DNA from: Marinicauda algicola | GTDB lineage: Bacteria > Pseudomonadota > Alphaproteobacteria > Caulobacterales > Maricaulaceae | Assembly: GCF_017161425.1 (NCBI RefSeq) | Contig: NZ_CP071057.1 | Span: 806,001-870,000 of the forward strand | Reading direction: 5' to 3' | Length of the DNA: 64,000 nucleotides | In this document: positions 47,501 to 64,000 of the stretch, one piece after another | How positions within the stretch are numbered: position 1 is the first letter of the stretch | Layout of the letters: every line of letters starts with the position of its first letter | The notes under the pieces: model-generated | Told to the model about the DNA's origin: nothing | Databases searched by the model: none | The model's input: the letters and a program-made list of their open reading frames with translations, nothing else | Position numbers and translations under genes: made by a program

Positions 47501-47794
47501 TTCCGCGTCTCTCGCGGACTATCGCGAACGATCAATAAATTCAACAAATACAATAGCTTGATACCGATTTTCGTTCGGTGTCTATCGCCTTCTATCGCGG
47601 GCCAACGGAACATTCTGACGGTATCGCCTGACGGTATACAAATTGCCTCTTCCTGCCTAAAGTCAAAATACCGTCAGCCCATTTTGGCGGCCTGACGGTA
47701 TTTTTTCGGCATAACGCATTGAAAAATAAGTTTTTTGTTGTGGAAAATTGGCCATTTCGGCCTGACGGTAAAATTGGTGGGAAGGAGGCGCAAC
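47501..47794. repeat. Repeat-rich int promoter/attachment region
   Basis: Between guaA and int are: an inverted repeat TCCGCG/CGCGGA at 47502-47518; three CTATCGC copies (47519, 47582, 47592); and four same-strand CTGACGGTA copies (47615, 47628, 47692, 47762) plus one in opposite orientation (47669-47677). The opposed copy and the third copy form a perfect 13-bp stem (47665-47677 with 47692-47704) followed by T-run, terminator-like. The repeats look like arm-type integrase or excisionase sites. No gene is seen here. Confidence 0.65.
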
Positions 47795-49054
47795 ATGCTG
47801 ACCGATATTGCAATCAAGTCTTTGAAATCAAAGGATAAACCCTACAAGGTCGCAGACCGGGACGGTCTCTATGTGTCCGTCGCGCCGACGGGCACCAAGA
47901 CCTTCCGCTACGATTACCGTGTGAACGGGCGCCGGGAGACGCTGACCATCGGGCGTTATGGCAAGTACGGGATCACGCTGGCGGCTGCGCGCGAGAAGCT
48001 GATCGATGCGAAGAAGCTCGTGGATGAGGGTGTCTCACCCGCCAAGGAAAAGAAGCGGGCCAAGGCCAAAGCGAAATCCGAAGGGACGTTCGGGGAGCTT
48101 GCTCAGCGCTGGCTCGCTGAGAGCGAGATGTCGGACTCGACCCGCGACATGCGTCGTCACATTGTCGATCGTGACCTGATCCCGGCGCTGGGCAATTACA
48201 CCTTGCGCGAAGTGACGAGCGAGGACGTCCGTCAGCTCTGCGACAAGATCAAGAAGCGGGGCGCGCCTTCAACGGCGCTGCACGCCCGCGAGTTCATCAA
48301 GCTCATCTACGCCTTCGCCAATTTGCACGGCATCCGTGTCGAGAATCCCGCCGAGGAGGTCGATCCCCGGTCGATCGCGCGTGTCCGGCCCCGCGACCGC
48401 TCGCTCACGCCGCTGGAGATCCGGGTCCTCTATCGCGTGCTCGAAGAGATCACCGCCAATCCGACGCTGAAGCTCGGCGTGAAATTCATCCTGCTGACGA
48501 TGAAGCGCAAGACCGAGGTCGCCCATGCGACATGGGATGAAGTCAGTTTCCAGGATGCGGTCTGGACCATCCCGAAGAAGCGGATGAAGACCGGCCTCGA
48601 CCACAATGTCTATCTGTCGAACCAGGCGCTCGATATTCTGGTGGCGCTTAAAACCTGCGCAGGCGGATCGAAATACGTCTTCCCGTCGCGCTATGACACG
48701 TTTCGCCCGATATCGAATGCGACCTTCAACCGGATCACCGACAGCGCCCACAAGCTGGCAAGCGAGATGGAGCTTCCGCTGGAGCCTTTCACCGTCCACG
48801 ACCTGCGGCGCACGGGCTCGACGCTCCTGAATGAGCTTGGTTTCAATCGCGACTGGATCGAAAAAAGCCTCGCGCACGAAGACCGGCGCTCTTCGCGTGG
48901 GGTCTACAACAAGGCCGAATATGCAGACCAGCGCCGCCACATGATGCAGGAATGGGCCGACATGATCGATGCCTGGGCTGCGGGTGAAAGCCGCAAGCCG
49001 AACATCATCCCGGAGAGCATGGCGGTCTACGCCGCTGATCCGAGGGTGGGGTGA
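47795..49054 (+). CDS. int: Tyrosine-type integrase (P4 family)
   Basis: A 419-residue site-specific recombinase for excision and integration. The N-terminal DUF4102 arm-binding domain (about 1-85, DRDGLYVSVAPTGTKTFRY), core-binding SAM-like domain (about 97-185) and the catalytic domain have the residues Arg238 (KRKTE), Lys around 262, His335 and Arg338 (HDLRRT), His361 and nucleophile Tyr371 (SRGVYNK). Start at 47795 has GGAGG six bases upstream; an ATG 20 codons earlier has no family residues and no such site. Confidence 0.94.
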   Translation: MLTDIAIKSLKSKDKPYKVADRDGLYVSVAPTGTKTFRYDYRVNGRRETLTIGRYGKYGITLAAAREKLIDAKKLVDEGVSPAKEKKRAKAKAKSEGTFGELAQRWLAESEMSDSTRDMRRHIVDRDLIPALGNYTLREVTSEDVRQLCDKIKKRGAPSTALHAREFIKLIYAFANLHGIRVENPAEEVDPRSIARVRPRDRSLTPLEIRVLYRVLEEITANPTLKLGVKFILLTMKRKTEVAHATWDEVSFQDAVWTIPKKRMKTGLDHNVYLSNQALDILVALKTCAGGSKYVFPSRYDTFRPISNATFNRITDSAHKLASEMELPLEPFTVHDLRRTGSTLLNELGFNRDWIEKSLAHEDRRSSRGVYNKAEYADQRRHMMQEWADMIDAWAAGESRKPNIIPESMAVYAADPRVG

Positions 49055-49250
49055 TCGTCACTTCCGGTTCGGGCGCAGAAGGAGTCTTTACGACCGGCAT
49101 GAAGCGTAGGCCAAAGCTGACGTTTGCGATTGCGGCGCGAAGCAGCGCTGATGGCGCCAAACGGCCAATCGTGGATCCCAGGTCAGATTGGATGAATGTC
49201 GTGGACAATCCCATGTTGCAACACATCGGTCTAAGTAGGAAGGTGTAACT

Positions 49251-50426
49251 ATGGGGGGCACCGTGGACATCAAAGACATTTTCCCGCCGCCTGGTCACGT
49301 GCAGCGCTTGAGGTGCTCTGACTGCGACGGTTGGCTCGATCTCGCTTATGCTGACTTCGACGAAACTGTGTCAGGGGCGCGGATAGCCATCAAAGGGCTG
49401 CCCGTACTTCGGTGTTCTACGTGCGAGAAGGACTATCTTCCGGACCGATCGCGCATCTCGATCATCCGGCTGCACGAGCAGTGCGTGTCCAAGGTATCCG
49501 CCGGTGTCACCGTAACGCGTAGGAAGCTTGAAGACCGCTACCCCTTCACGGACGTGCCGTTCCAGTATGATGCGGACGACTACGAATACCTGCCTGGCCT
49601 TCGCGGGCAGGGGGACGGTTTTCTCACACTTGTGTTCTTCAAGAGAGGGGTCTTGCTGAAATACGACACGGCGTCGGGCTATCGCCTGACGTTTGCGTCT
49701 CGGACGTACGGCACGATCACCACGGACGAAGACAACCAGATAAGCTTTGGCATCAACCGAAATGGCCGCGTCGTGATGTGGCTCGGCGACATCGCGACAT
49801 TGCCCGTGCCGGAACAGTATTACCTGCTGTCTGAAAACGTGGAATCGGATCACTCCATCGGCAGCGAATTCTACGATGGACAGATCGACTGCATATTTTC
49901 CGATCCAACACCGGAAAACGACCTACTCGCGGCAAGGACGGACTTCCTCGAAGCTGCCAGGATGCATTTTGGAGCGACGCTCGCCCACCTTGAAGCCGAA
50001 GTGGTGGCGATCGCCCTCGACTTTGCGAGGCCGCTCACAGACAGCGTGAAGAACCAACAGCATGCGGCGGACGCGCTCAACAAGATCCACGTCGAATCTC
50101 TGGATACACAGGCCATCGGGAAGTTGCTGAGCGCGGCCGGAGGCGATCCCAAAGGCCTTGGCGGCCTGAAGCGCCTGCAGACACTACTTGAAACGCTTCC
50201 CGGCAGTTCCGCAATTTCGAATCTCATGCTGCCGCTCTTCGTGACCTACGATCTCCGGGTGGCAAACCTGCATCTCACATCTACGGGGACGGCGTCGGAC
50301 AAGATGGACGATATCACGAGCCGCCTTGGTCTCCCGGCCGCCGCGCCGTTCTTTGATGTCTACGACGCGCTGGTGAAGCAGCTTGCGGCGGCTTATCGCG
50401 GGTTGCAGGAGCTCCTCACCCCGTAG
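49251..50426 (+). CDS. Zinc-ribbon cargo protein of unknown function
   Basis: A 391-residue protein I do not recognise. CxxC pairs at Cys22/25 and Cys55/58 look like a zinc ribbon; the middle (about 100-215) is beta-rich with no familiar motif; the C-terminal about 165 residues are predicted helical and include DLRVANLH with Arg336 and His341, an R-x4-H spacing as in HEPN RNases, but without other support. GGAAGG precedes the ATG. It is the only cargo gene between int and the trb operon, so a defence or element-maintenance role is conceivable. Confidence 0.7.
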   Translation: MGGTVDIKDIFPPPGHVQRLRCSDCDGWLDLAYADFDETVSGARIAIKGLPVLRCSTCEKDYLPDRSRISIIRLHEQCVSKVSAGVTVTRRKLEDRYPFTDVPFQYDADDYEYLPGLRGQGDGFLTLVFFKRGVLLKYDTASGYRLTFASRTYGTITTDEDNQISFGINRNGRVVMWLGDIATLPVPEQYYLLSENVESDHSIGSEFYDGQIDCIFSDPTPENDLLAARTDFLEAARMHFGATLAHLEAEVVAIALDFARPLTDSVKNQQHAADALNKIHVESLDTQAIGKLLSAAGGDPKGLGGLKRLQTLLETLPGSSAISNLMLPLFVTYDLRVANLHLTSTGTASDKMDDITSRLGLPAAAPFFDVYDALVKQLAAAYRGLQELLTP

Positions 50427-50650
50427 CTGCAAGAGGCGGTGGCTGATCTTTCGCGGCCTCTAGTCCAAGACGGGGCCAAGCGATGCACTGTGCCTTCGTC
50501 AGCTGCTTGTTCAACTCATCCTGCGGTGGGCGGCTCGGAAGATGCTTTGGCGGTGTCGCAGTCAATACGACTTAACGATTGGATGTCTGCTAACGGGCGC
50601 GCTGCCTACGAAACGCAGCATTGTCCGCAATGAGGGATATTTGAGACAGT
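50427..50650. other. Gap between cargo gene and trb operon end
   Basis: 224 bp between two stop codons (the cargo gene and the AlpA gene, convergent). I see no gene, strong hairpin or repeat. Some sequence here may belong to transcript 3' ends. Confidence 0.4.
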
Positions 50651-51001
50651 TCACCGCATTCGATAATCCGGATGCGGTCCGCAGCCTTCGCGACCCTTGC
50701 GCCTTTGGGCGTCGATCCACTCCAGCACTTCGGCGAGGGGCCAGACGACGCATCGGGGTGTCAGGTAGAACCGCTGCGGAAATTCGCCCTTCTGTTCGAG
50801 TTCGTAGATCGTCGTATCGGAGAGCGGCACAAGCTTGCGAAGCTCCGGCCGCCTGACGGTTCGGCGCCTGAAGATGTCGGCGGGCGTGATCCGTTCAGGA
50901 TCGGTTGAAGTGACCGGAGCAGGGGCCTTTGGCGGCGGGTTCAGGTCCCGCGCGAAATCCCTAAGCCCTGTGCGCCCGCCCTCCTTTACGCGATGCAACA
51001 T
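50651..51001 (-). CDS. AlpA-type small DNA-binding protein (putative excisionase)
   Basis: A 116-residue protein. The C-terminal half (about 58-98) has the winged helix-turn-helix pattern of AlpA/Xis factors: LVPLSDTTIYELEQKGEFPQRFYLTPRCVVWPLAEVLEWI region. The first about 40 residues are Pro/Arg-rich linker. It is the last gene of the trb operon, 12 bp after DUF736; CGGAG precedes the start. By position it is a candidate recombination directionality factor for the integrase, though a transcription regulator is also possible. Confidence 0.75.
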   Translation of the reverse strand: MLHRVKEGGRTGLRDFARDLNPPPKAPAPVTSTDPERITPADIFRRRTVRRPELRKLVPLSDTTIYELEQKGEFPQRFYLTPRCVVWPLAEVLEWIDAQRRKGREGCGPHPDYRMR

Positions 51002-51013
51002 GACGCACTCCGA

Positions 51014-51328
51014 TTACACCGTCTTCGCCCGGTTCCACACCATCACGCCGGTGCCGTCTTTCTCGTTCTCGAAGAAGGCCGCGCGCATGGGGCTGGCAAA
51101 GCTCGGGTCGTCGAGTTTGACGGCGAGGTAGGGCGTTTCGCCATCCTTGCTTTCCTGACGCCAGGCAGCGCCGAGTTCGGCCCCGCCGGCATAGAGGCGG
51201 AAGTCGGGGGCACCGTCTGAGGCCTTGTCACTGTTGGGAACAAGCTGGGCTTTGACATTGATGGTCATGGTGCGGATGGTGCCGGTATAGCTGCCTTCCT
51301 TCAGGGTGAATGTTCCGATCTGTGCCAT
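51014..51328 (-). CDS. DUF736 protein
   Basis: A 104-residue DUF736 protein starting MAQIGTFTLKEGSYTGTIRT. This family is nearly universal in alphaproteobacterial Trb-type elements and always lies near the transfer genes, but has no established role. Four bases after DUF2274. It has a clear GGAAGG-like site just upstream of the ATG. Confidence 0.88.
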   Translation of the reverse strand: MAQIGTFTLKEGSYTGTIRTMTINVKAQLVPNSDKASDGAPDFRLYAGGAELGAAWRQESKDGETPYLAVKLDDPSFASPMRAAFFENEKDGTGVMVWNRAKTV

Positions 51329-51332
51329 GGGT

Positions 51333-51569
51333 TTAGGTCTCCGTGCTGGCGGTTGAATGAAGGGCGCGTCGCGCCCGCTTGAACCCGGCGTCGGACGCCA
51401 GGAAGCTCTCGATCATGGCCGGGATCAGCGCTTCGGGCTTTTCCTCCGCGCCGTAGGTCTGGCGGTAGATTTCGGCATAGTCGCTGAGCGCGCTGGCGAG
51501 GTCGGGATCAACCGAGAGGCTCATGCGCACCGGCGTGCGGTCGGGTAATTTGTCGAGACGAAGGGTCAT
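51333..51569 (-). CDS. DUF2274 protein
   Basis: A 78-residue small acidic protein, recognisable by MTLRLDKLPDRTPVRMSLSVDPDL, found almost only directly downstream of trbI in transfer operons. Overlaps the trbI stop by four bases. Function unknown; the N-terminal KLPDRTPVR... strand-helix layout resembles ribbon-helix-helix proteins, so a regulatory role is possible. Confidence 0.85.
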   Translation of the reverse strand: MTLRLDKLPDRTPVRMSLSVDPDLASALSDYAEIYRQTYGAEEKPEALIPAMIESFLASDAGFKRARRALHSTASTET

Positions 51570-52843
51570 CGTGTGGCTCCTTGGGGATGGGGTCTGAGGA
51601 TGAGATCGCGGGTGACGACCACACGCACCGGCCAGCCGGGGCGCACGCGGATGGTCGGCTGGATGCCAAGGTTGCGCTCAACCACGCGCTGACCGGCTTG
51701 GTTGATGGTGTCCGTCGTGCCGCGGCGGATGGCGCGTTCGAGATCGCCGTCTCCGTCTGCGCCGAGTTCGGCCCCGACGCCGAGGATGGTCGCAAGACCG
51801 GCCGCGACAAACACGCGATCCCAGTGATGATCGGTTCTGTCTGAGAGGCCTGCAAAGCCCTGCGCGTCCGCGCCGGGCGCAGAGATGAGGATGGAGGACC
51901 CGTCAGGGAAGATGATCCTGTCCCAGGTCACCAGAGCCCGGTCCTGCCCGAATGAGACTTCGGACTGGTAGCGTCCGATGAGGCGTGAGCCTTGCGGGAT
52001 CAGGAGATACTGCCCGGTCACGGTGTCATAAACGGGCTGCGTCACCTGCGCGACGATTGTGCCGGGCAGGTCCGAGTTGATGCCGGTGACCAGCGAGGCC
52101 GGGATCAGCGTGCCCGCCATCACCTGATAAGGCGAGGCCGGGTCCTGCAGCCCATGCGGATTGTAGATGTCGCTGGCAGAACCCTCGCTCGCAAAGGCGA
52201 GCTTGCGGCTTTGGAGATTGGTATCGGCGGGCTGACCGAACGCTGACGGTGCGCCTTGCGGCAGGGCCGCGAGTGCAAGAAGCTCCGAGCCGAGATCAAG
52301 TGCTGGGTCGCGATAAGCGGGGCGAGCCCCGGTGGTGCTTGCCATGCCGCTCTGAGAGTCGAGCCGGAAGAAGACCGGCGCGCGGGCGGCTTCATCGGCG
52401 AGCGCTGCCTCGCGCATGCGCCGGGCGCGTTCGGCCTCGTCAGCCGGGTTCGGGCGGAAATCGTCTTCGAAGCGGGTCACGTATTCAGGCTCGATGCCAA
52501 GCTCGCGTTCAGCGCGCAGCATGGTCGCGCCGAGATCGCCCGACAGCGGCGGGCCAAGGCGTGCTATGCGGTCTTCGACCGGCGCGATGTCGCTATAGCT
52601 TGTCGGGAGTGTGGAGAGGCCTTCGGGCTTGCGTGTGTTGGTCGTGTTGTAAAGCTCGCGGCGGGCATCGGGGTCGACCGCAGTTGGCGGCTTCAGGGCA
52701 ATGCTCATGGCGGCGAACAGGGCGAGCACGCCAATGCCTGCGCCGACCATCAGGACCTTGCGATTGATCCGTGTAACCGGCTTCGGGCTGGAGCGGATCT
52801 TCAGCCGCTCGGCATGCTCGTCGAAGGGAATGGGCTCGGACAT
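51566..52843 (-). CDS. trbI: Conjugal transfer protein TrbI (VirB10-like)
   Basis: The inner-to-outer-membrane spanning core protein of the mating channel. It has 425 residues: cytoplasmic about 1-28, one membrane helix at about 29-50, a Pro-rich periplasmic linker and a VirB10-type C-terminal domain (GTLIPASLVTGINSDLPG, PQGSRLIGRYQS). Start is the ATG at 52843 four bases after the trbG stop; the frame continues up but carries no family residues. Confidence 0.92.
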   Translation of the reverse strand: MSEPIPFDEHAERLKIRSSPKPVTRINRKVLMVGAGIGVLALFAAMSIALKPPTAVDPDARRELYNTTNTRKPEGLSTLPTSYSDIAPVEDRIARLGPPLSGDLGATMLRAERELGIEPEYVTRFEDDFRPNPADEAERARRMREAALADEAARAPVFFRLDSQSGMASTTGARPAYRDPALDLGSELLALAALPQGAPSAFGQPADTNLQSRKLAFASEGSASDIYNPHGLQDPASPYQVMAGTLIPASLVTGINSDLPGTIVAQVTQPVYDTVTGQYLLIPQGSRLIGRYQSEVSFGQDRALVTWDRIIFPDGSSILISAPGADAQGFAGLSDRTDHHWDRVFVAAGLATILGVGAELGADGDGDLERAIRRGTTDTINQAGQRVVERNLGIQPTIRVRPGWPVRVVVTRDLILRPHPQGATR

Positions 52844-52847
52844 CTTC

Positions 52848-53885
52848 CTAGCCCCCGAAGATCGCGGCCAGCGGCGGACGGCGCTCATTGCGCGAGATGC
52901 GGACAACGGTCTGATTGCGCTCGCCAAGGCGCAGCTCGGCCGCGCGGAACAGCCGGTCGACGACATAATAATTGCCGCGCACGCGATAGTTGACGAGTTC
53001 CGCGTCGCCATCCGCGCCCAGAACAAAGAGCGGCGGCATGTCCGTGGTGGCAATGTCCTCCGGCATCTGGATGAACACCTGACGGCCATCATCGAAGACC
53101 CGCACCGGCTTCCAGTCGGGGCTGTCGCCGGAGAGCCGGTAATCGAAGTTGAGGCCTTCAAGGGTAAGGCCGCGTTCAATGCTGCCAGCGTCGCGTGCGA
53201 TGGCGCGTTCATTGCGGGCGGTCAGGCCCGCGAGTTCATCAGCCGGATAGCGCCAGGAGAGCGCGGCCATGTAGCCGCCTTCGGTACTTTCCAGTTCGAG
53301 GTGATAGGTGCGCCGGTCGGTGGCGATCATCAGGTTTGTGCGGATGCCGGATGAGATCGGCTTGACCAGCACATGGGCGCGGGCCGTTGCGCCCGATCCT
53401 GAGATCGTGTCGCCGACCACCCAGCGGACCGTGTCACCCGCTGAGACCGACACCAACTCTTCGCCCGGCTGAAGCGCGATGTCGCTGACCTGACCGGGAC
53501 TGGCATAGAGGCGGTAGAGCGCGCCCTCGGTATAAGGATAGACTTGGATCGCGTTGACGTATCCATCGACCGAAGGTTCGATCAGCGCGCTGGTGCGGCC
53601 TTGTCTTATCGCTTCTGCCGGTGAAACCGAGGGCGCGCTGACGGTCCTTGTATAGGTCCGCGTGACGCTGCCATCGGGATTGGTGGTGACCCGCGCGCCG
53701 ATTGGCATCATCTGGCCGGGCAGCGGAAGTGCCACGGCGGTTTCGACGATTTCGACGGGATAGTCGGCGCGGTCCTCGACGGGCGTGGCCGCGACAAAGG
53801 CCGCCGGATCAATCGGTTCGAGTTCCGTCGTGGCGCAGGCCGTGGTGAGTGCGAGGGCCGAAGTGGCAAGCAGAATACGAAGCAT
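52848..53885 (-). CDS. trbG: Conjugal transfer protein TrbG (VirB9-like)
   Basis: The VirB9-type outer core component. It has 345 residues from ATG 53885, with a lipoprotein-like N-terminus (LLATSALALTTAC with Cys16). Two start choices: an ATG at 53894 overlapping the trbF stop (ATGA), or this one, which lies ten bases after AGGAG; the other would have only one base between. The C-terminus has the GDSPDWKPVRVFDDGRQ and ADGDAELVNYRVRG portions typical of VirB9. Confidence 0.9.
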   Translation of the reverse strand: MLRILLATSALALTTACATTELEPIDPAAFVAATPVEDRADYPVEIVETAVALPLPGQMMPIGARVTTNPDGSVTRTYTRTVSAPSVSPAEAIRQGRTSALIEPSVDGYVNAIQVYPYTEGALYRLYASPGQVSDIALQPGEELVSVSAGDTVRWVVGDTISGSGATARAHVLVKPISSGIRTNLMIATDRRTYHLELESTEGGYMAALSWRYPADELAGLTARNERAIARDAGSIERGLTLEGLNFDYRLSGDSPDWKPVRVFDDGRQVFIQMPEDIATTDMPPLFVLGADGDAELVNYRVRGNYYVVDRLFRAAELRLGERNQTVVRISRNERRPPLAAIFGG

Positions 53886-53890
53886 GGGGA

Positions 53891-54583
53891 TCATTCTCCT
53901 GTGACAAGGTCCTGACCCCAGTTCAGGGCATGGACATAAAGGCCGAGCGGATTGGCGCGCAGGGTCTCTGCGTCCGTCGGCGGCTGGGTGATGAGAGTGA
54001 AATTGCCGGTGAACCTTTGGGCACGGACCAGCGCGCCATTCTCATAGGTCTTCTCGATCCAGCGGGCCTGGAAGCTGTCGTCCGAGACGCGCACCACGCT
54101 GACCACATCCACGGTGCGGGACTTGCGGCCGACATCGGCGAAGGGATCATTGGCCGAGGCGTATTCGTTGAGCGTGGTGGCGGCGCGGTCAGTCACGAAG
54201 TCATAGGCACGCAGCCAGTTCTCGCGCACGACGACAGGATCGACGGAAAGGCCCCGGACATGTTCAATGAAGTTGGCAAGGTGATGGGCGATCTGGGCAT
54301 CGGTCGGCGTATAGCGTTCCGTCGCCGGAGCAACGGCGCGGGCCGCGCCGGTCTCATCGACTTCCACGACATAGGGCGTGACGGTGGACTGCATCGAGCG
54401 CCAGACCAGCGCGCCGGAGGTGACGAAGCAAAGCCCGAGACAGCCGATCGCCATGAGCCGCCAGTTTTTCGCCTGCACGCGGGCGGAACCAATTCTTTCG
54501 TCCCATACCTGTCCGGCCTTCTGATAAGGCGTTTCGGGGAACGGGCTTGGCCCATAGCTGGAGGAAGATCGCCTGAAAGCCAT
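53891..54583 (-). CDS. trbF: Conjugal transfer protein TrbF (VirB8-like)
   Basis: A bitopic 230-residue protein of the inner-membrane complex: about 40 cytoplasmic residues, membrane helix at about 42-62, then a periplasmic NTF2-like VirB8 domain with ENWLRAYDFVTDRA and RWIEKTYENG. Lies three bases from the trbL stop. Confidence 0.92.
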   Translation of the reverse strand: MAFRRSSSSYGPSPFPETPYQKAGQVWDERIGSARVQAKNWRLMAIGCLGLCFVTSGALVWRSMQSTVTPYVVEVDETGAARAVAPATERYTPTDAQIAHHLANFIEHVRGLSVDPVVVRENWLRAYDFVTDRAATTLNEYASANDPFADVGRKSRTVDVVSVVRVSDDSFQARWIEKTYENGALVRAQRFTGNFTLITQPPTDAETLRANPLGLYVHALNWGQDLVTGE

Positions 54584-54586
54584 TGT

Positions 54587-55903
54587 CTAATCGTCCTTGT
54601 CTTTGAGGGTGGGGTTCGCGCCCGAAGCGCCGCGATCACCGTCGCGGATCGAGTGCGCGGCCATCTGCCCTGCCTGTCCCATGCGCTGGCTGGTCTGCAT
54701 GCGCCGCGCCCAGCCGGGGCTTTGGGCAGAGGATGATGCGGAGGCAGGGTTTTGCATGGATGCGGTCGGCGAACCGCCGGTGGCGCGCCAGGCGCCTTGA
54801 CTGCCGCGCTGGTAGGCCTCACGCATGGACTGGGCGGGACGGCTTGCTGCGCGGCGCATGGCGTCCCCGCCAGCGCGGGCGACACCGGCAAGGCCTGCGG
54901 CGACACCCGCCGCGCCGGATGCGCCGGAGGCGACAGAGCCCAGCGTATAGGAGGTGCGCGCCGCGCCCGCCATGCTCGCACCGGCCTTGACGGCGCTTGA
55001 AGCACCGCCTGCCACAGCGCCGACGGCGGCGCGCCCGCCCATCCCGGCGACATACGTCCCGGCAGCGACACCGGCCGCCGCGCCTGCAGCGGAGCCTGCG
55101 CTAAGCTGCGGCGCGCCGGTAATGAGGCCGGAGGCAATGCCGGGCGCAAAGATGCCCATCCAGAAGAAGACAATCGCGGCCAGCACCGTGCCCATGACCT
55201 GAGCGAGCGTGACATCATCGCCGGTGCGGAATGCGTCGGTGACAGACGAGAAGAGCGTCGAGCCGATACCGATGATGACGGCGAGCACCATGAGCTTGAT
55301 GCCGGAGGTGATGACATTGCCGAGCACGCGTTCAGCCAGAAACGTCGTCTTGTTCCAGAGCGCGAACGGCACGAGCACGAACCCGGCCAGCGTCGTCAGC
55401 TTGAACTCCAGGATCGTGATGAAGAGCTGCACGGCGAGCACGAAGAAGGCGACCATGATGATGGCCCAGGCGATGAACATCACCGCGATCATGATGAAGT
55501 TATGGAAGAAAGAGATTGGCCCCAGCATGTCGCCGATCTCTTCCAGAAGCGGCTGACCGGCATCGAGGCCGACACTGGCGATGAAGCCGGGGCGCAGGAG
55601 ATCATCGGCGGTCATCGTGCCGCCGCCTGCGGTCACGCCGAGTTCGGCGAAACTGTCGAAGACGATGCCTGCAAGGAGCGAAAAGTTGCCGATCACGAAG
55701 GCGAAGAAACCGACATAGAGCACCTTTTTGAGGAGCCCCGCGATGACGTCGGTGTTCTGAGACAGCGCCCAGAACAGGCCCGCCAGGGTGATGTCGATGG
55801 CGATGAGCGTGGTCGACAGGTAAGCGACATCGCCCGCCAGCAGGCCGAACCCGCTGTCTATGTAAGCGATAAAGGTCGCGAGGAAGGTGTCGATCACGTC
55901 CAT
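54587..55903 (-). CDS. trbL: Conjugal transfer protein TrbL (VirB6-like)
   Basis: A polytopic inner-membrane channel component of 438 residues with about six to seven helices in the first 260 residues, then a long Gly/Ala/Ser-rich low-complexity C-terminal tail. The start MDVIDTFLATFIAYIDSG is family-like. It directly follows trbJ by six bases, leaving no room for trbK. Confidence 0.92.
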   Translation of the reverse strand: MDVIDTFLATFIAYIDSGFGLLAGDVAYLSTTLIAIDITLAGLFWALSQNTDVIAGLLKKVLYVGFFAFVIGNFSLLAGIVFDSFAELGVTAGGGTMTADDLLRPGFIASVGLDAGQPLLEEIGDMLGPISFFHNFIMIAVMFIAWAIIMVAFFVLAVQLFITILEFKLTTLAGFVLVPFALWNKTTFLAERVLGNVITSGIKLMVLAVIIGIGSTLFSSVTDAFRTGDDVTLAQVMGTVLAAIVFFWMGIFAPGIASGLITGAPQLSAGSAAGAAAGVAAGTYVAGMGGRAAVGAVAGGASSAVKAGASMAGAARTSYTLGSVASGASGAAGVAAGLAGVARAGGDAMRRAASRPAQSMREAYQRGSQGAWRATGGSPTASMQNPASASSSAQSPGWARRMQTSQRMGQAGQMAAHSIRDGDRGASGANPTLKDKDD

Positions 55904-55909
55904 GGCCCG

Positions 55910-56608
55910 CTACTCTCCGAGAAAGGCCCGGGTACGGGCGCGGCCACGTTCGGCCTCGGCGAGTTGGCGGGCGCGCTCCAGCGCCTCGGCGCGGTAATGG
56001 GCCGCCATCATCGCTTCCATCTGCATCAGCTGCTCAGTCTGCAGGGCCTCGATCTGATTGCCCGCCTGCGCGACCTGGAGATTGCCGACGGCGGACTGGC
56101 TGTCTGCGATCAGCCGGTCGAGGCTGTCACTGTCAGCGCGCGCGGTTGAGACGACCTGCGCCGTGACGGTGAGGCTTTCCCGGTAAGCCGTGCGGGACTG
56201 ACGCCAGCGGGCGCGGGCCTCTTCGACGAGGACGGCCTGACGCGGCGGTTCGGCGCCATAGTCTTCCGGGTAGACCTCTTCATACTCGCGCTCGATTTCC
56301 TCGACGCGGTAGCCGATGCCTTCGGCCTCGCGCATCAGCTCCTCGATGCGGCGCATACGGCGCAGGATGTCGTCAGCGATAGAATCCGGCAGTGCTTCCA
56401 GATCGCGCGCCATGTTTTCCAGCATTTCGATTTCATGGGTGAGCTGCTGGATCTGCTGGTTGACCTCCTGAAGCGAGCGGATGGCCTGGTAGATGTTCTG
56501 GATGTGATTGGCCGGGTCATACACCGTCCATTGGGCCGAAGCGGGCGGCGCGATGAGGATGGAGAGCGGCGCGGCGCAGATCAAAGCGGAGGCAAGTATG
56601 CGTTTCAT
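55910..56608 (-). CDS. trbJ: Conjugal transfer protein TrbJ (VirB5-like)
   Basis: A periplasmic 232-residue minor-pilus type protein. Signal peptide about residues 1-25 (ending PPASAQW), then a long helical coiled-coil (IRSLQEVNQQIQQLTHEIEMLENM). It lies nine bases after the trbE stop. Confidence 0.92.
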   Translation of the reverse strand: MKRILASALICAAPLSILIAPPASAQWTVYDPANHIQNIYQAIRSLQEVNQQIQQLTHEIEMLENMARDLEALPDSIADDILRRMRRIEELMREAEGIGYRVEEIEREYEEVYPEDYGAEPPRQAVLVEEARARWRQSRTAYRESLTVTAQVVSTARADSDSLDRLIADSQSAVGNLQVAQAGNQIEALQTEQLMQMEAMMAAHYRAEALERARQLAEAERGRARTRAFLGE

Positions 56609-56617
56609 CGGGGGCTC

Positions 56618-59089
56618 CTATTCGGCGGCGAGGATGTGGGAGGGATTGAAGGGCGCGTGCGCCTCAGGCTCCGGCGCATGGCCGGGCCAGCGGGTGAGAA
56701 GCTCGGCTGCCCAGGGCAGGCCCTTTTCGATCAGCCAGCAGGCGGAAAAGCCGTCGCCTTCCGTCTCGGCCCAGATGCGATCCATGCGGGCCTGGTCTTC
56801 GGGCGATGACGCGCCGCAGACGGACAATGCAATCGGCCCGAGGCCAAGATCGAAGACACGGGCCCCGAGGGGCGACTGGTAGTAATAGTCGCGCTTCGGT
56901 GTGGCCCTGCTGATCAGTTCGATCTGGCGCGCGTTGAGGCCGAACCGCTGATAGGTCTCGCGGGATTGTGGTTCCTGCGCGCGCTCGTTCGGCAGGAAGA
57001 TGCGCGTGGGGCAGGATTCGACGAGGGCTGGCGCGATGGTGCTGTTCGCAATGTCGGCAAGGCTTTGCGTCGCGAACACGACGGACACGTTCTTCTTGCG
57101 AAGGGTCTTCAGCCATTCACGGATGCGCGCGGCAAACATGGGATCATCGAGGAAGAGCCAGGCTTCATCGAGGATGAGCAGTGTTGGCCTGCCATCAAAC
57201 CGCGCTTCCAGCCGGTGGAAGAGATAGGTGATCACAGGCGCCACGGCGCCTTTCGCATGCATCAGCTCTTCCATCTCGAAGCAGACTGTGTCGGCGAGCG
57301 CGAGGCTTTCATGGTCGGCATCGAGGAGCCGTCCGTGCGGACCTTCCAGCGTGAACGGATGCAGCGCGGATTTGAGCGTGTCGTCCTGCAGCATCAGGCT
57401 GAGGCCTGTCAGCGTGCGTTCGGGTTCAGGCGCTGAGCTGAGAGACTGGATCGCTTCCCAGAGCTTTGCCTTGAGGTCCGGCGTCATCGCGACGCCTTCA
57501 TTGGTGCAAAGACCCGCGAGCCAGTCGGCGGCAAAGCTTGCGCCATGTTCGGTGTCGATATCTTTCAGCGGCTGGAGACTTGGCGCGCGGGCACCGCCGA
57601 GATCGATATGTGCACCGCCCATGCAGAGCGTCGCGGCGCGGGCCGAGCGGCCCTTGTCGAACAGGAAGACCTGCGCCCCCTCATAGCGCTTCCATTGCAG
57701 GGCTAAGAGCGAGAGCAGAACAGACTTGCCCGCGCCGGTCGGGCCGACGACCAGCGTATGGCCGACATCGCCAATATGCAGGTTCAGGCGGAACGGTGTC
57801 GTGCCATCGGTCTGCGCCTGAATGAGCGCCGGGGCGTTGTGGTGACGATTGGTGTCTTCGCCCGCCCAGACGGCCGAGAGCGGCACCATATGGGCAAGGT
57901 TCAGCGTGTGCAGAATGGGCTGGCGGACATTGGCATAAGGATGACCGGGCAATGAGCCGAGCCAGGCATCGACCGCGTTCAGTGTTTCCCTGATCGCGGT
58001 GAAACCGCGGCCATTCACGATGCGCTCGGCAATTCGGATATGTTCGTCCACCGTGCGGCGGTCGGGGTCAGCAACGGTGATGGTGGTCGTGACATAGCCG
58101 TAGGAAACGAGATCACTGCCCAGTTCCTGCAGCGCCGCATCGGCGTCAGCGGCCTTATTGTCAGCGTCATTGTCGACGAGCGCCGCCTGCTCATTGAACA
58201 TGGTCTCACGCAGCACCGCGCCGATGGATTTGCGCTTGGCGAACCAGTGGCGGCGTTTCTTGCCGAGGACTTTCTCGGCTTCGGCCTTGTCCATCGCGAT
58301 GAACCGGGTCGCCCAACGATAGGCAAAGCCTTGACGGTTCAGCTCGTCGAGAATGCCCGGCAGGGTCGTGGCCGGAAAGCCGAGAATGGTCAGCGTGCGC
58401 AAATGCGCCTCACCAATCATCGGTTCGAGCCCGCCCGCGAAGGGCTCATCGGCGAGAATGGCGTCGAGGAAGACCGGCAGTTCCGGCGTCACGACCGGGT
58501 GGCGCTTGGTTGAGATCGTCGAGTGCAGATAAGTCAGCGTCTCGTCGTCAGAGAGCTTCGCAATCTCGGCGAGGCAGGTGGCCAACAGATCAAAGACGCG
58601 GTCAGCGTGCTGCTGGAAGGTCTCAAGCCTATGCCGCCAGGTCGCGGCGTCTTCCGTTTCGACACGCTGGATCAGGGCCTTCTCGGCGCGGCCGGTGGCA
58701 TCGGCGGGCGGCAGCCAGAGCAGGGTCAGATAATACGAACTCTCAAACCGGGTTCCGGCTTCTTCCGCCTGTAATGACCGTTCCTGATCGGTGAGCCAGG
58801 TCAGCGCATCGGGAAACTCCGCCTCCGGATAGTCATGCACTTCATGGCGCTGGGCTTCGAAGAAGAGGGCCCAGCCCGAGCCGAACCGGCGCAGCACATT
58901 ATTGACCCGCGCCATGACGGAGACGAGTTCTTCTTCCGTCGAACTTTCGAGGTCAGGGCCGCGATAGCGGAACGTCGTCTGGAAGCTGCCATCCTTGTTG
59001 AGGACAACGCCCGGCGCCACGATGCAGGCCCAGGGCAGATAGTCGGCCAGAAGCGTCGGCGCGTCGGCATATTCTCTGAGGTTCAGCAT
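56618..59089 (-). CDS. trbE: Conjugal transfer ATPase TrbE (VirB4-like)
   Basis: The largest secretion ATPase, 823 residues. It has an N-terminal CagE/VirB4 domain, Walker A GPTGAGKS at 449-456 and Walker B TLLILDEAW around residue 640. It powers pilus assembly and substrate transfer at the inner membrane. It overlaps the trbD stop by seven bases. Confidence 0.95.
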   Translation of the reverse strand: MLNLREYADAPTLLADYLPWACIVAPGVVLNKDGSFQTTFRYRGPDLESSTEEELVSVMARVNNVLRRFGSGWALFFEAQRHEVHDYPEAEFPDALTWLTDQERSLQAEEAGTRFESSYYLTLLWLPPADATGRAEKALIQRVETEDAATWRHRLETFQQHADRVFDLLATCLAEIAKLSDDETLTYLHSTISTKRHPVVTPELPVFLDAILADEPFAGGLEPMIGEAHLRTLTILGFPATTLPGILDELNRQGFAYRWATRFIAMDKAEAEKVLGKKRRHWFAKRKSIGAVLRETMFNEQAALVDNDADNKAADADAALQELGSDLVSYGYVTTTITVADPDRRTVDEHIRIAERIVNGRGFTAIRETLNAVDAWLGSLPGHPYANVRQPILHTLNLAHMVPLSAVWAGEDTNRHHNAPALIQAQTDGTTPFRLNLHIGDVGHTLVVGPTGAGKSVLLSLLALQWKRYEGAQVFLFDKGRSARAATLCMGGAHIDLGGARAPSLQPLKDIDTEHGASFAADWLAGLCTNEGVAMTPDLKAKLWEAIQSLSSAPEPERTLTGLSLMLQDDTLKSALHPFTLEGPHGRLLDADHESLALADTVCFEMEELMHAKGAVAPVITYLFHRLEARFDGRPTLLILDEAWLFLDDPMFAARIREWLKTLRKKNVSVVFATQSLADIANSTIAPALVESCPTRIFLPNERAQEPQSRETYQRFGLNARQIELISRATPKRDYYYQSPLGARVFDLGLGPIALSVCGASSPEDQARMDRIWAETEGDGFSACWLIEKGLPWAAELLTRWPGHAPEPEAHAPFNPSHILAAE

Positions 59090-62137: not shown

Positions 62138-64000
62138 TCAGGCTGCGTCGCCTTTGACCTCACGAAGCGCCCGGTTGAAAAAGAAGCGGATCAGCTTGTC
62201 CCGGGCTGCCGGATCGGTGAGCACGATATCGCGCATGTCATTGTCACGCTGGAACATGCGGATCGCGCCCTGAAAGAACGCTTGCGAGAAAGCGGAATAG
62301 ACTACATCAGGTGCATTGTTCCGAAGCATGTCTGTCATGTCGTCGTCGAGCGTGGCCTGATAGGTCGGCTCATAACGAATAAAGTCATTCTCGGTGAATT
62401 CCGTACCATGACGGTCGTTGAAAGCCTTCACGATTTCCGAGAGCTCGCGCTGTTCATCTTCGGTATAGGGCTTGGCACCAAACTCGCTGATCGCCTTTAG
62501 CGCTTCCTTGTCCCCCGGCGAGAGGGAAGCGCTGCCCTGTTCCTTCTGCACGACCTTGAAGGCCTGCAGGCGGAGCATGTCCTGTGTGATTTCTATGTCG
62601 GGCGGCACTTCACGGTTCGGCAATAAACGCGAAAGCCAGGACGCATAGCTGTAGAGCTTTTCGAGCGAGGTATCCTCGAGCCGGATAACCTGCGCAACGA
62701 AGCCGTAGAAGCGCATATAGCTTTTCAGAAGCTGACGGAATTCTTCCTGGCGGCCTTCATCCTCATCGGCTTCGAAGCGCTGCACCGCTTCTCGGACAAG
62801 GCCCTCAAGACGCGCCCGGTCGCTGCCGCTGAGTGCGCCTGAATAGAATGTCTCTGCGAAGCGGTCGATCTCACCGCGATCGAGATAGCCGAATTTGAAA
62901 AGGCGGCCTTCGAGTTCGTAGACCTGATTGGGGTCCGACATCGCCTCAAGCGAGGTCGCTTCATAAAAAGGCCGGAACGCGGTCTGGATATCCTCCATCG
63001 TGTTCTGGAAATCGAGAATATAGGTGTTCTCCTTGCCAGCTTTCGTCCTGTTGAGGCGCGATAGTGTCTGTACCGCCTGCAATCCGGCAAGTTTGCGATC
63101 AATATACATGGCGCAGAGCTTTGGCTGGTCGAACCCAGTCTGGTACTTTTCCGCGACGATCAGGATTTGGTACGTGTCAGGATAAGGCGTGCCGTCCGGC
63201 TTGAACCCGTCAAACCGTCCCGGTAGCTCTGTTTCACTAAATCCGTTCAGGTCGGCTTCGGTATAGGTTTCGCCCTCATGGGTGAGTTCGCCGGAGAAGG
63301 CGACAAGCGCGCGAAGGTCGCCATAGTTCTCAGCATCGAGATAGGCCTTGATCCCGAAATAATAGCGCAGTGCATGCTCGCGGCTTTGGGTGACAATCAT
63401 GGCCTTTGCCTGACCGCCAAGTTCGCCCATCACATGGCGGCGGAAATGTTCGACAATGATTTCGACCTTCTGGCCGATCGCGGTCGGATGCAGGGATGCA
63501 AACCGCGCCACTTTCCGCTGCCCGCGCCGGCCGCTCAGTTCCGGATCGTCTTCAATCGTCTTCTCGAGTTGGTAATAGGCCTTGTACGTCATGTAGTTCT
63601 GGAGGACGTCCAGAATGAAGCCTTCCTCGATGGCCTGACGCATCGAATACTCATGGAAAGCGACCGGCAACCCGTCCGAACCTTTGACGCCGAATCGCTC
63701 AAGCGTCACGTTTCGCGGCGTCGCGGTGAAGGCGAAGAAGCTGAGATTGGCCTGCGGTCCGCGGGACTTCTGATAGTCGAGGATCAGATCCTCGATATCT
63801 TCGCTTGAGGTTTCATCGCGGGTCAGCGCATCCGTCATCGCCTGGGCCGATTTGCCGGACTGGCTGGAATGGGCTTCGTCGATGATGACGGCGAAGGTGC
63901 GCGCGCCCTGACCGGAGATCGCCTTGAGATGATCGGTTGAGAATTTCTGGATCGTCGTAACGATGATCCGTGCCCCCTTGGCGATCGCCTCTTTCAGCTG
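62138..64000 (-). CDS. hsdR: Type I restriction enzyme R subunit (HsdR), C-terminal part
   Basis: The translocase/nuclease subunit of a type I restriction system; about 620 residues visible, the N-terminus beyond the right edge. Visible SF2 helicase motifs are II (VIIDEAHSSQSG), III (FFAFTATPR), V (ILIVAEKYQTGFDQP) and VI (QTLSRLNRT). The endonuclease domain and motif I would lie outside the window. HsdM and HsdS are not visible and presumably follow to the right or are missing. Element cargo. Confidence 0.9.
   Translation of the reverse strand, partial: QLKEAIAKGARIIVTTIQKFSTDHLKAISGQGARTFAVIIDEAHSSQSGKSAQAMTDALTRDETSSEDIEDLILDYQKSRGPQANLSFFAFTATPRNVTLERFGVKGSDGLPVAFHEYSMRQAIEEGFILDVLQNYMTYKAYYQLEKTIEDDPELSGRRGQRKVARFASLHPTAIGQKVEIIVEHFRRHVMGELGGQAKAMIVTQSREHALRYYFGIKAYLDAENYGDLRALVAFSGELTHEGETYTEADLNGFSETELPGRFDGFKPDGTPYPDTYQILIVAEKYQTGFDQPKLCAMYIDRKLAGLQAVQTLSRLNRTKAGKENTYILDFQNTMEDIQTAFRPFYEATSLEAMSDPNQVYELEGRLFKFGYLDRGEIDRFAETFYSGALSGSDRARLEGLVREAVQRFEADEDEGRQEEFRQLLKSYMRFYGFVAQVIRLEDTSLEKLYSYASWLSRLLPNREVPPDIEITQDMLRLQAFKVVQKEQGSASLSPGDKEALKAISEFGAKPYTEDEQRELSEIVKAFNDRHGTEFTENDFIRYEPTYQATLDDDMTDMLRNNAPDVVYSAFSQAFFQGAIRMFQRDNDMRDIVLTDPAARDKLIRFFFNRALREVKGDAA

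Follow-up and report, generated by a model that had tools for sequence, protein, structure and literature searches.

A lone cargo gene of a trb-type integrative conjugative element encodes a protein with an MqsA-type zinc domain and a HEPN-like C-terminal domain

Introduction

Proteins of the HEPN superfamily (Abi_C, ApeA, DUF4145 and others) carry an R-x4-6-H motif that closes a helix, the histidine opening the next loop, with an acidic residue upstream in helix 2, and they occur as lone or fused defence proteins (PMC3710099). One of them, Tha of S. aureus, is a prophage-borne anti-phage protein of 301 aa that is activated by the tail, and both its anti-phage and its RNase roles are proven (PMC11087260). 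In E. coli, a selection for phage defence brought up a zinc-finger-like protein with the C-terminal domain of a ribonuclease family (PMC9519451). Zinc is also bound by the N-terminal part of the antitoxin MqsA (MqsA-N), via Cys3, 6, 37 and 40, and this part holds the MqsR toxin (PMC2791442).

We analysed 64,000 nucleotides of the Marinicauda algicola genome (NZ_CP071057.1, positions 806,001 to 870,000, hereafter the window), in which an unnamed 391-aa protein is encoded next to an integrase gene (int). It shares with the HEPN superfamily an R-x4-H motif at a predicted helix end in a lone gene product, and a conserved acid precedes the motif in sequence; searches with it and its family gave no significant hit to the HEPN families compared, nor a HEPN structure among the best 50 Foldseek matches. 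Like Tha, it is the product of a single gene on a mobile element and has a C-terminal R-x4-H domain; in Tha the N-terminal part is unlike known domains. This likeness is one of description: Tha is shorter, has no reported zinc domain, and is the only one of the two with proven roles. The E. coli zinc-finger-like protein (PMC9519451) is similar in architecture as worded, again by description only. MqsA and the cargo protein both have two CxxC pairs separated by 29-30 residues (inner Cys spacing of 31 positions in MqsA-N and 30 here), long strands and a helix. Unlike in MqsA, the zinc domain is fused to a central and a different, helical C-terminal domain, and the HTH-XRE of the MqsA C-terminus is absent by Pfam. 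Whereas the mqsR toxin gene adjoins the MqsA system, the neighbours of the cargo gene are int and alpA, with no mqsR.

Results

A single gene in the cargo slot of a conjugative element

On re-reading of the sequence, the coordinates and residue numbers given by the first-pass annotation for the ORF, its CxxC pairs, Arg336 and His341 were correct (Table 1). The ATG is preceded by AGGAAGG, which resembles a ribosome-binding site. The ORF begins 196 bases after the int stop and ends 224 bases before the end of the convergent alpA gene. It had been called the only cargo gene between int and the trb operon, and this holds for genes of cargo size. An extra 65-aa ORF (49051-49248, + strand) shares bases with the int stop (GTGA) and finishes 2 bases short of the cargo ATG; it has no homologues beyond identical copies of the element and its codon bias is weak, and it was rejected as a partner gene.

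In a sister element on the Acinetobacter plasmid p1UC20804, int (62% identical) abuts alpA, which is followed by DUF2274, TrbI, TrbG and TrbF, and in Agrobacterium CP146241 int likewise lies against alpA. The window gene thus occupies a slot that these elements leave unfilled, and it counts as accessory cargo of an integrative conjugative element of the trb type.

Table 1. Positions of the features discussed (window coordinates unless a locus is named)
Feature	Position	Strand	Basis or remark
P4-type tyrosine integrase, inserted at guaA 3' end	47795..49054	+	Pfam Arm-DNA-bind_3 and Phage_integrase; junction GAGTGGGAATGA
Cargo slot flanked by convergent int and alpA	49055..50650		Empty in sister element of Acinetobacter plasmid p1UC20804
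Lone cargo gene, unnamed family, 391 aa	49251..50426	+	ORF
MqsA/YgiT-type zinc domain: Cys 22, 25, 55, 58; strands 28-40, 43-55; helix 65-78	49314..49490	+	AlphaFold2 model, Foldseek, Cys conservation
Central alpha/beta domain, conserved, residues 104-217; F130, D180, L184 and N196 invariant	49560..49901	+	Alignments of 31-33 homologues
C-terminal helical HEPN-like domain, residues 220-389	49908..50417	+	AlphaFold2 helices, pLDDT about 90 in most blocks
Glu282 codon, end of helix 266-282; E or D at this position in all 33 homologues	50094..50096	+	Alignment, AlphaFold2
Arg336 codon, invariant (33/33)	50256..50258	+	Alignment
His341 codon, invariant (33/33)	50271..50273	+	Alignment
AlpA-type regulator, last gene on trb side	50651..51001	-	Pfam PF05930, E=2.3e-11
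Conjugation (trb) genes	51333..59089	-	ORFs; individual names inferred from same gene order in L107
Stand-alone N-terminal + central proteins	L034:4944-5570, L035:4902-5540		Without helical domain

From about 47501 to 51500, a segment spanning int, the cargo gene and alpA, the window is 99.6-100% identical in nucleotides to six Hyphomonadaceae genomes (L001-L006), while guaA is 71-77% identical in the five loci that extend into it, so this module has moved recently between genera. Compared with the same six genomes, identity drops to 85-93% from 51500 to 56000 within a trb block (51501-56500), rises to 95.6% at the block end and then returns to 100%. The element is thus a mosaic, and the trb block appears to be a sign of recombination between related elements.

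A second copy of the guaA junction, as the attachment-site repeat of the far end, was not found within the 100 kb read. A decayed guaA-like 3' fragment (genome positions 906240-906319; L048:16240-16319), 81% identical over 80 bases, lies about 52.8 kb past the end of int and is possibly the scar of an older integration. A search for sister copies of the element in those genomes of the same family that were covered found, at E<=1e-100, the window's own int alone. The element also contains type I restriction (R) and modification (M) genes (window 62138-64000 and L047:2777-4804, - strand), the M match being of full length, and two apparently identical insertion sequences of two ORFs each (L047:772-2117 and, in the window frame, 89914-91259), one of them sitting between the restriction genes.

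A divergent family with differing N-termini

The protein had been reported as unrecognised, and searches of Pfam, NCBIfam, PADLOC and PDB sequences indeed gave no family above cut-off. Neither the protein nor its family matched any PADLOC-DB 2.0 system model; by these searches, the family is undescribed in the libraries used, with no Pfam, NCBIfam or PADLOC model.

Relatives were nonetheless found. GTDB contigs yielded six identical proteins (100%, Hyphomonadaceae) and one 52% relative (Caulobacteraceae MAG), plasmids yielded proteins of 20-30% identity, mostly 530-590 aa long, whole genomes gave further ones, and in IMG/VR relatives were present on thirteen distinct viral contigs. An E. coli relative, WP_044862893.1, occurs in 20 of 5,426 genomes, and its DNA is 68.9% identical to a long form (see below). 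With one relative each in Halorubrum and on a P. syringae plasmid, the family ranges over proteobacteria, Rhodococcus and Halorubrum. Residues were counted in 33 homologues, bacterial and one archaeal; L028 and L031 were excluded, their frames not being cleanly readable. The first 31 homologues form 11 clusters at 50% identity, with a median pairwise identity of 0.31. Exactly six window positions are invariant in the 33 sequences, F130, D180, L184, N196, R336 and H341.

The family falls into several forms. The short forms (window, L007 and L023) are 47-52% identical to the window protein; L033, also a short form, lacks the Cys pairs. In the long forms, about 270 different residues precede the common central and C-terminal parts; an AlphaFold2 model of a long form was unusable (pLDDT 54). 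Two proteins of viral contigs, of 209 and 213 aa (L034, L035), consist of the N-terminal and central parts only. One of these stand-alone versions comes right after a GHKL ATPase gene, and the other follows a DUF5677 gene close to a P2-type portal gene.

An MqsA-type zinc domain in the short forms

The AlphaFold2 model of the window protein was built from 14 eligible sequences and has a mean pLDDT of 76. Its middle is rich in strands and its C-terminus is helical from residue 220, in keeping with the beta-rich centre and helical end proposed earlier. The two CxxC pairs, at residues 22-25 and 55-58, had been taken for a zinc ribbon. The zinc site itself is supported, all four Cys being common to the three short forms, whereas the generic label was replaced: the best structural matches of the N-terminus by Foldseek are MqsA structures (3hi2, 3gn5 and 3ga8; probability 0.99-1.00, with E values of only 0.04-0.16), and a YgiT_finger match was sub-threshold in the NCBIfam search (E=0.13). 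In BFVD, matches of good probability were of zinc-domain size only. This MqsA-type domain is peculiar to the short-form branch and not a property of the whole family.

Conservation of a putative HEPN-like site

A resemblance to a HEPN RNase motif had been proposed, with the caveat that it rested on the spacing of Arg336 and His341 only. R336-H341 is the only R-x4-H of the cargo protein. However, 27 of the 38 long ORFs of the window contain R-x4-H, and 33/38 contain R-x4-6-H, so that the spacing is uninformative as evidence and conservation had to be the test. The caveat was well placed for the spacing alone, but the resemblance now has more behind it, as R336, H341 and an acidic residue at position 282 are conserved in 33/33 homologues. 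The number of residues between R and H is 4 in 26 of the 31 homologues counted and 5 in the other 5. In the model, the final turn of a confidently predicted helix (319-340) contains R336, and H341 comes directly after this helix, a predicted placement that fits the HEPN geometry (PMC3710099). Against the resemblance, R336 is followed by V337, at a place where the usual HEPN residue is polar (N, D or H).

Searches for a known relative of this domain were negative. A Pfam scan of the C-terminal domain at E<=10 returned no HEPN family, and with the whole three-domain model Foldseek gave no HEPN structure among the best 50 of 466 matches, and none at E<=0.001. Profile-profile comparisons of the family with Abi_C, HEPN_T and DUF4145 were also negative, but they have low power, because accepted HEPN families fail against each other: two of three control comparisons between such families failed too, among them that of Abi_C with HEPN_T. 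The structure prediction and remote-homology searches thus gave predicted helices and an MqsA-type zinc fold, while Foldseek, Pfam and profile-profile comparison gave no HEPN match. The proposed HEPN-like end thus keeps its predicted helices and its invariant R-x4-5-H, but neither profiles nor folds gave it a significant hit to a HEPN domain already described. From the model and the conserved residues, membership of the HEPN superfamily is likely, not established. We call the domain HEPN-like and not a proven member, because no profile or Foldseek search tied it to a known HEPN family.

Genomic company of the relatives

Linkage of the homologues to mobile elements, on which the earlier proposal depended, was found: many relatives lie on conjugative plasmids, on ICE-like or mobilizable elements, and on viral contigs. 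The E. coli relative stands alone, flanked by a tRNA-Asn integrase on one side and pilV/bfpA/traD/MobQ on the other. Sister elements have, in this interval, the Septu genes PtuA (E 9.5e-174) and PtuB (E 6.4e-103), a DUF262 gene that matches NsnA and PD-T4-2_A and has a HEPN gene next to it, a nuclease matching LmuA/HamA, or unnamed genes. The P. syringae relative comes after the GMT trio gmtY-VPA1269-gmtX, and GMT islands are known to carry anti-phage and antibacterial cargo (PMC12039261). L035 has a P2-type portal gene, an integrase and genes of DUF4062 and DUF5677 in its neighbourhood, and the site next to the P2 portal is established as a hotspot of defence genes (PMC9519451). Another relative adjoins an nSTAND-like NTPase gene, and the short form L023 directly follows a HigB/HigA-like pair, named from sequence. 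Relatives therefore keep company with defence genes or lie in slots that hold them. Such positions would suggest a defence role by association, and these slots hold non-defence genes too.

Discussion

The protein has three parts: a zinc domain of MqsA type, the conserved central domain and, at the C-terminus, predicted helices that carry the R-x4-H motif and the acid before it. We read it as a single-protein HEPN-like RNase effector that would act against phage and be kept inactive by its own zinc and central domains, and we give this reading a probability of roughly 0.55. The reading draws on the fold match of the zinc domain, the invariant R and H and the acid at 282, the predicted helix position of the motif, the slot found empty in a sister element, the recent transfer, the defence genes near relatives and the type I restriction genes of the element. 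In a healthy cell, the zinc and central domains would keep the RNase off. They would sense a cue of infection and activate the protein, upon which R336 and H341 would cut RNA, and the cell would be arrested ahead of phage spread. We infer the RNase activity, the anti-phage role and the N-terminal sensing. More speculatively, and with odds clearly against it as a whole, an MqsA-N may have been captured in cis by a HEPN-like RNase, making a self-inhibited one-gene immune switch, opened at the zinc domain by a phage product or by a freed MqsR-like toxin. The branches with a different N-terminus of about 270 residues would then represent one effector with exchangeable triggers across bacteria and archaea.

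The protein could instead be a one-protein addiction or maintenance module, a HEPN-like toxin with a built-in MqsA-type zinc domain that stabilises the element and has no phage role. MqsA-N, which the N-terminus matches in fold, is the toxin-binding part of an antitoxin (PMC2791442), the cargo gene adjoins int, and the L023 short form sits right after a HigB/HigA-like pair. But the sister element has nothing in this slot, and the gene is therefore not needed for maintenance; moreover, the long forms are without the zinc domain, and no second gene provides an unstable antitoxin. We consider this reading improbable. Many relatives are found on viral contigs, ICE-like elements and conjugative plasmids, which are mutual competitors, and this could also mean that the protein keeps out plasmids or ICEs, or rival phage satellites, and not lytic phage; the genes sharing the E. 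coli slot match anti-phage models, however, and we hold this to be unlikely as well.

A different objection concerns the enzyme itself. The C-terminal helices may be an unrelated fold, with R and H in a structural or nucleotide-binding role, and the protein may regulate the element, or bind RNA or DNA, through its zinc and central domains. The searches gave no HEPN profile or fold match, some proteins have the N-terminal and central parts alone (L034, L035), and the other four invariant columns are in the central domain, so the key function may sit there. Yet the R/H/acid pattern, the range of spacings and the position on the helix all fit the HEPN description, and we give a non-RNase protein little chance, about the same as either of the two preceding alternatives.

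If the C-terminal fold holds, the HEPN-like effector would be a new variant of its kind, and the family, with no model in Pfam, NCBIfam or PADLOC, is well placed as a candidate one-gene defence system that may have been overlooked. An antitoxin fold and an RNase-like effector in one chain would make it testable how HEPN effectors are kept off, and WP_044862893.1 brings the family within reach of phage laboratories. The E. coli slot holds further candidates among the unnamed genes of the int-pilV interval in L099 and L100: those tested had no match in PADLOC, and they include an MvdC/D ATP-grasp gene with two partners and a pair encoding proteins of 530 aa and 366 aa.
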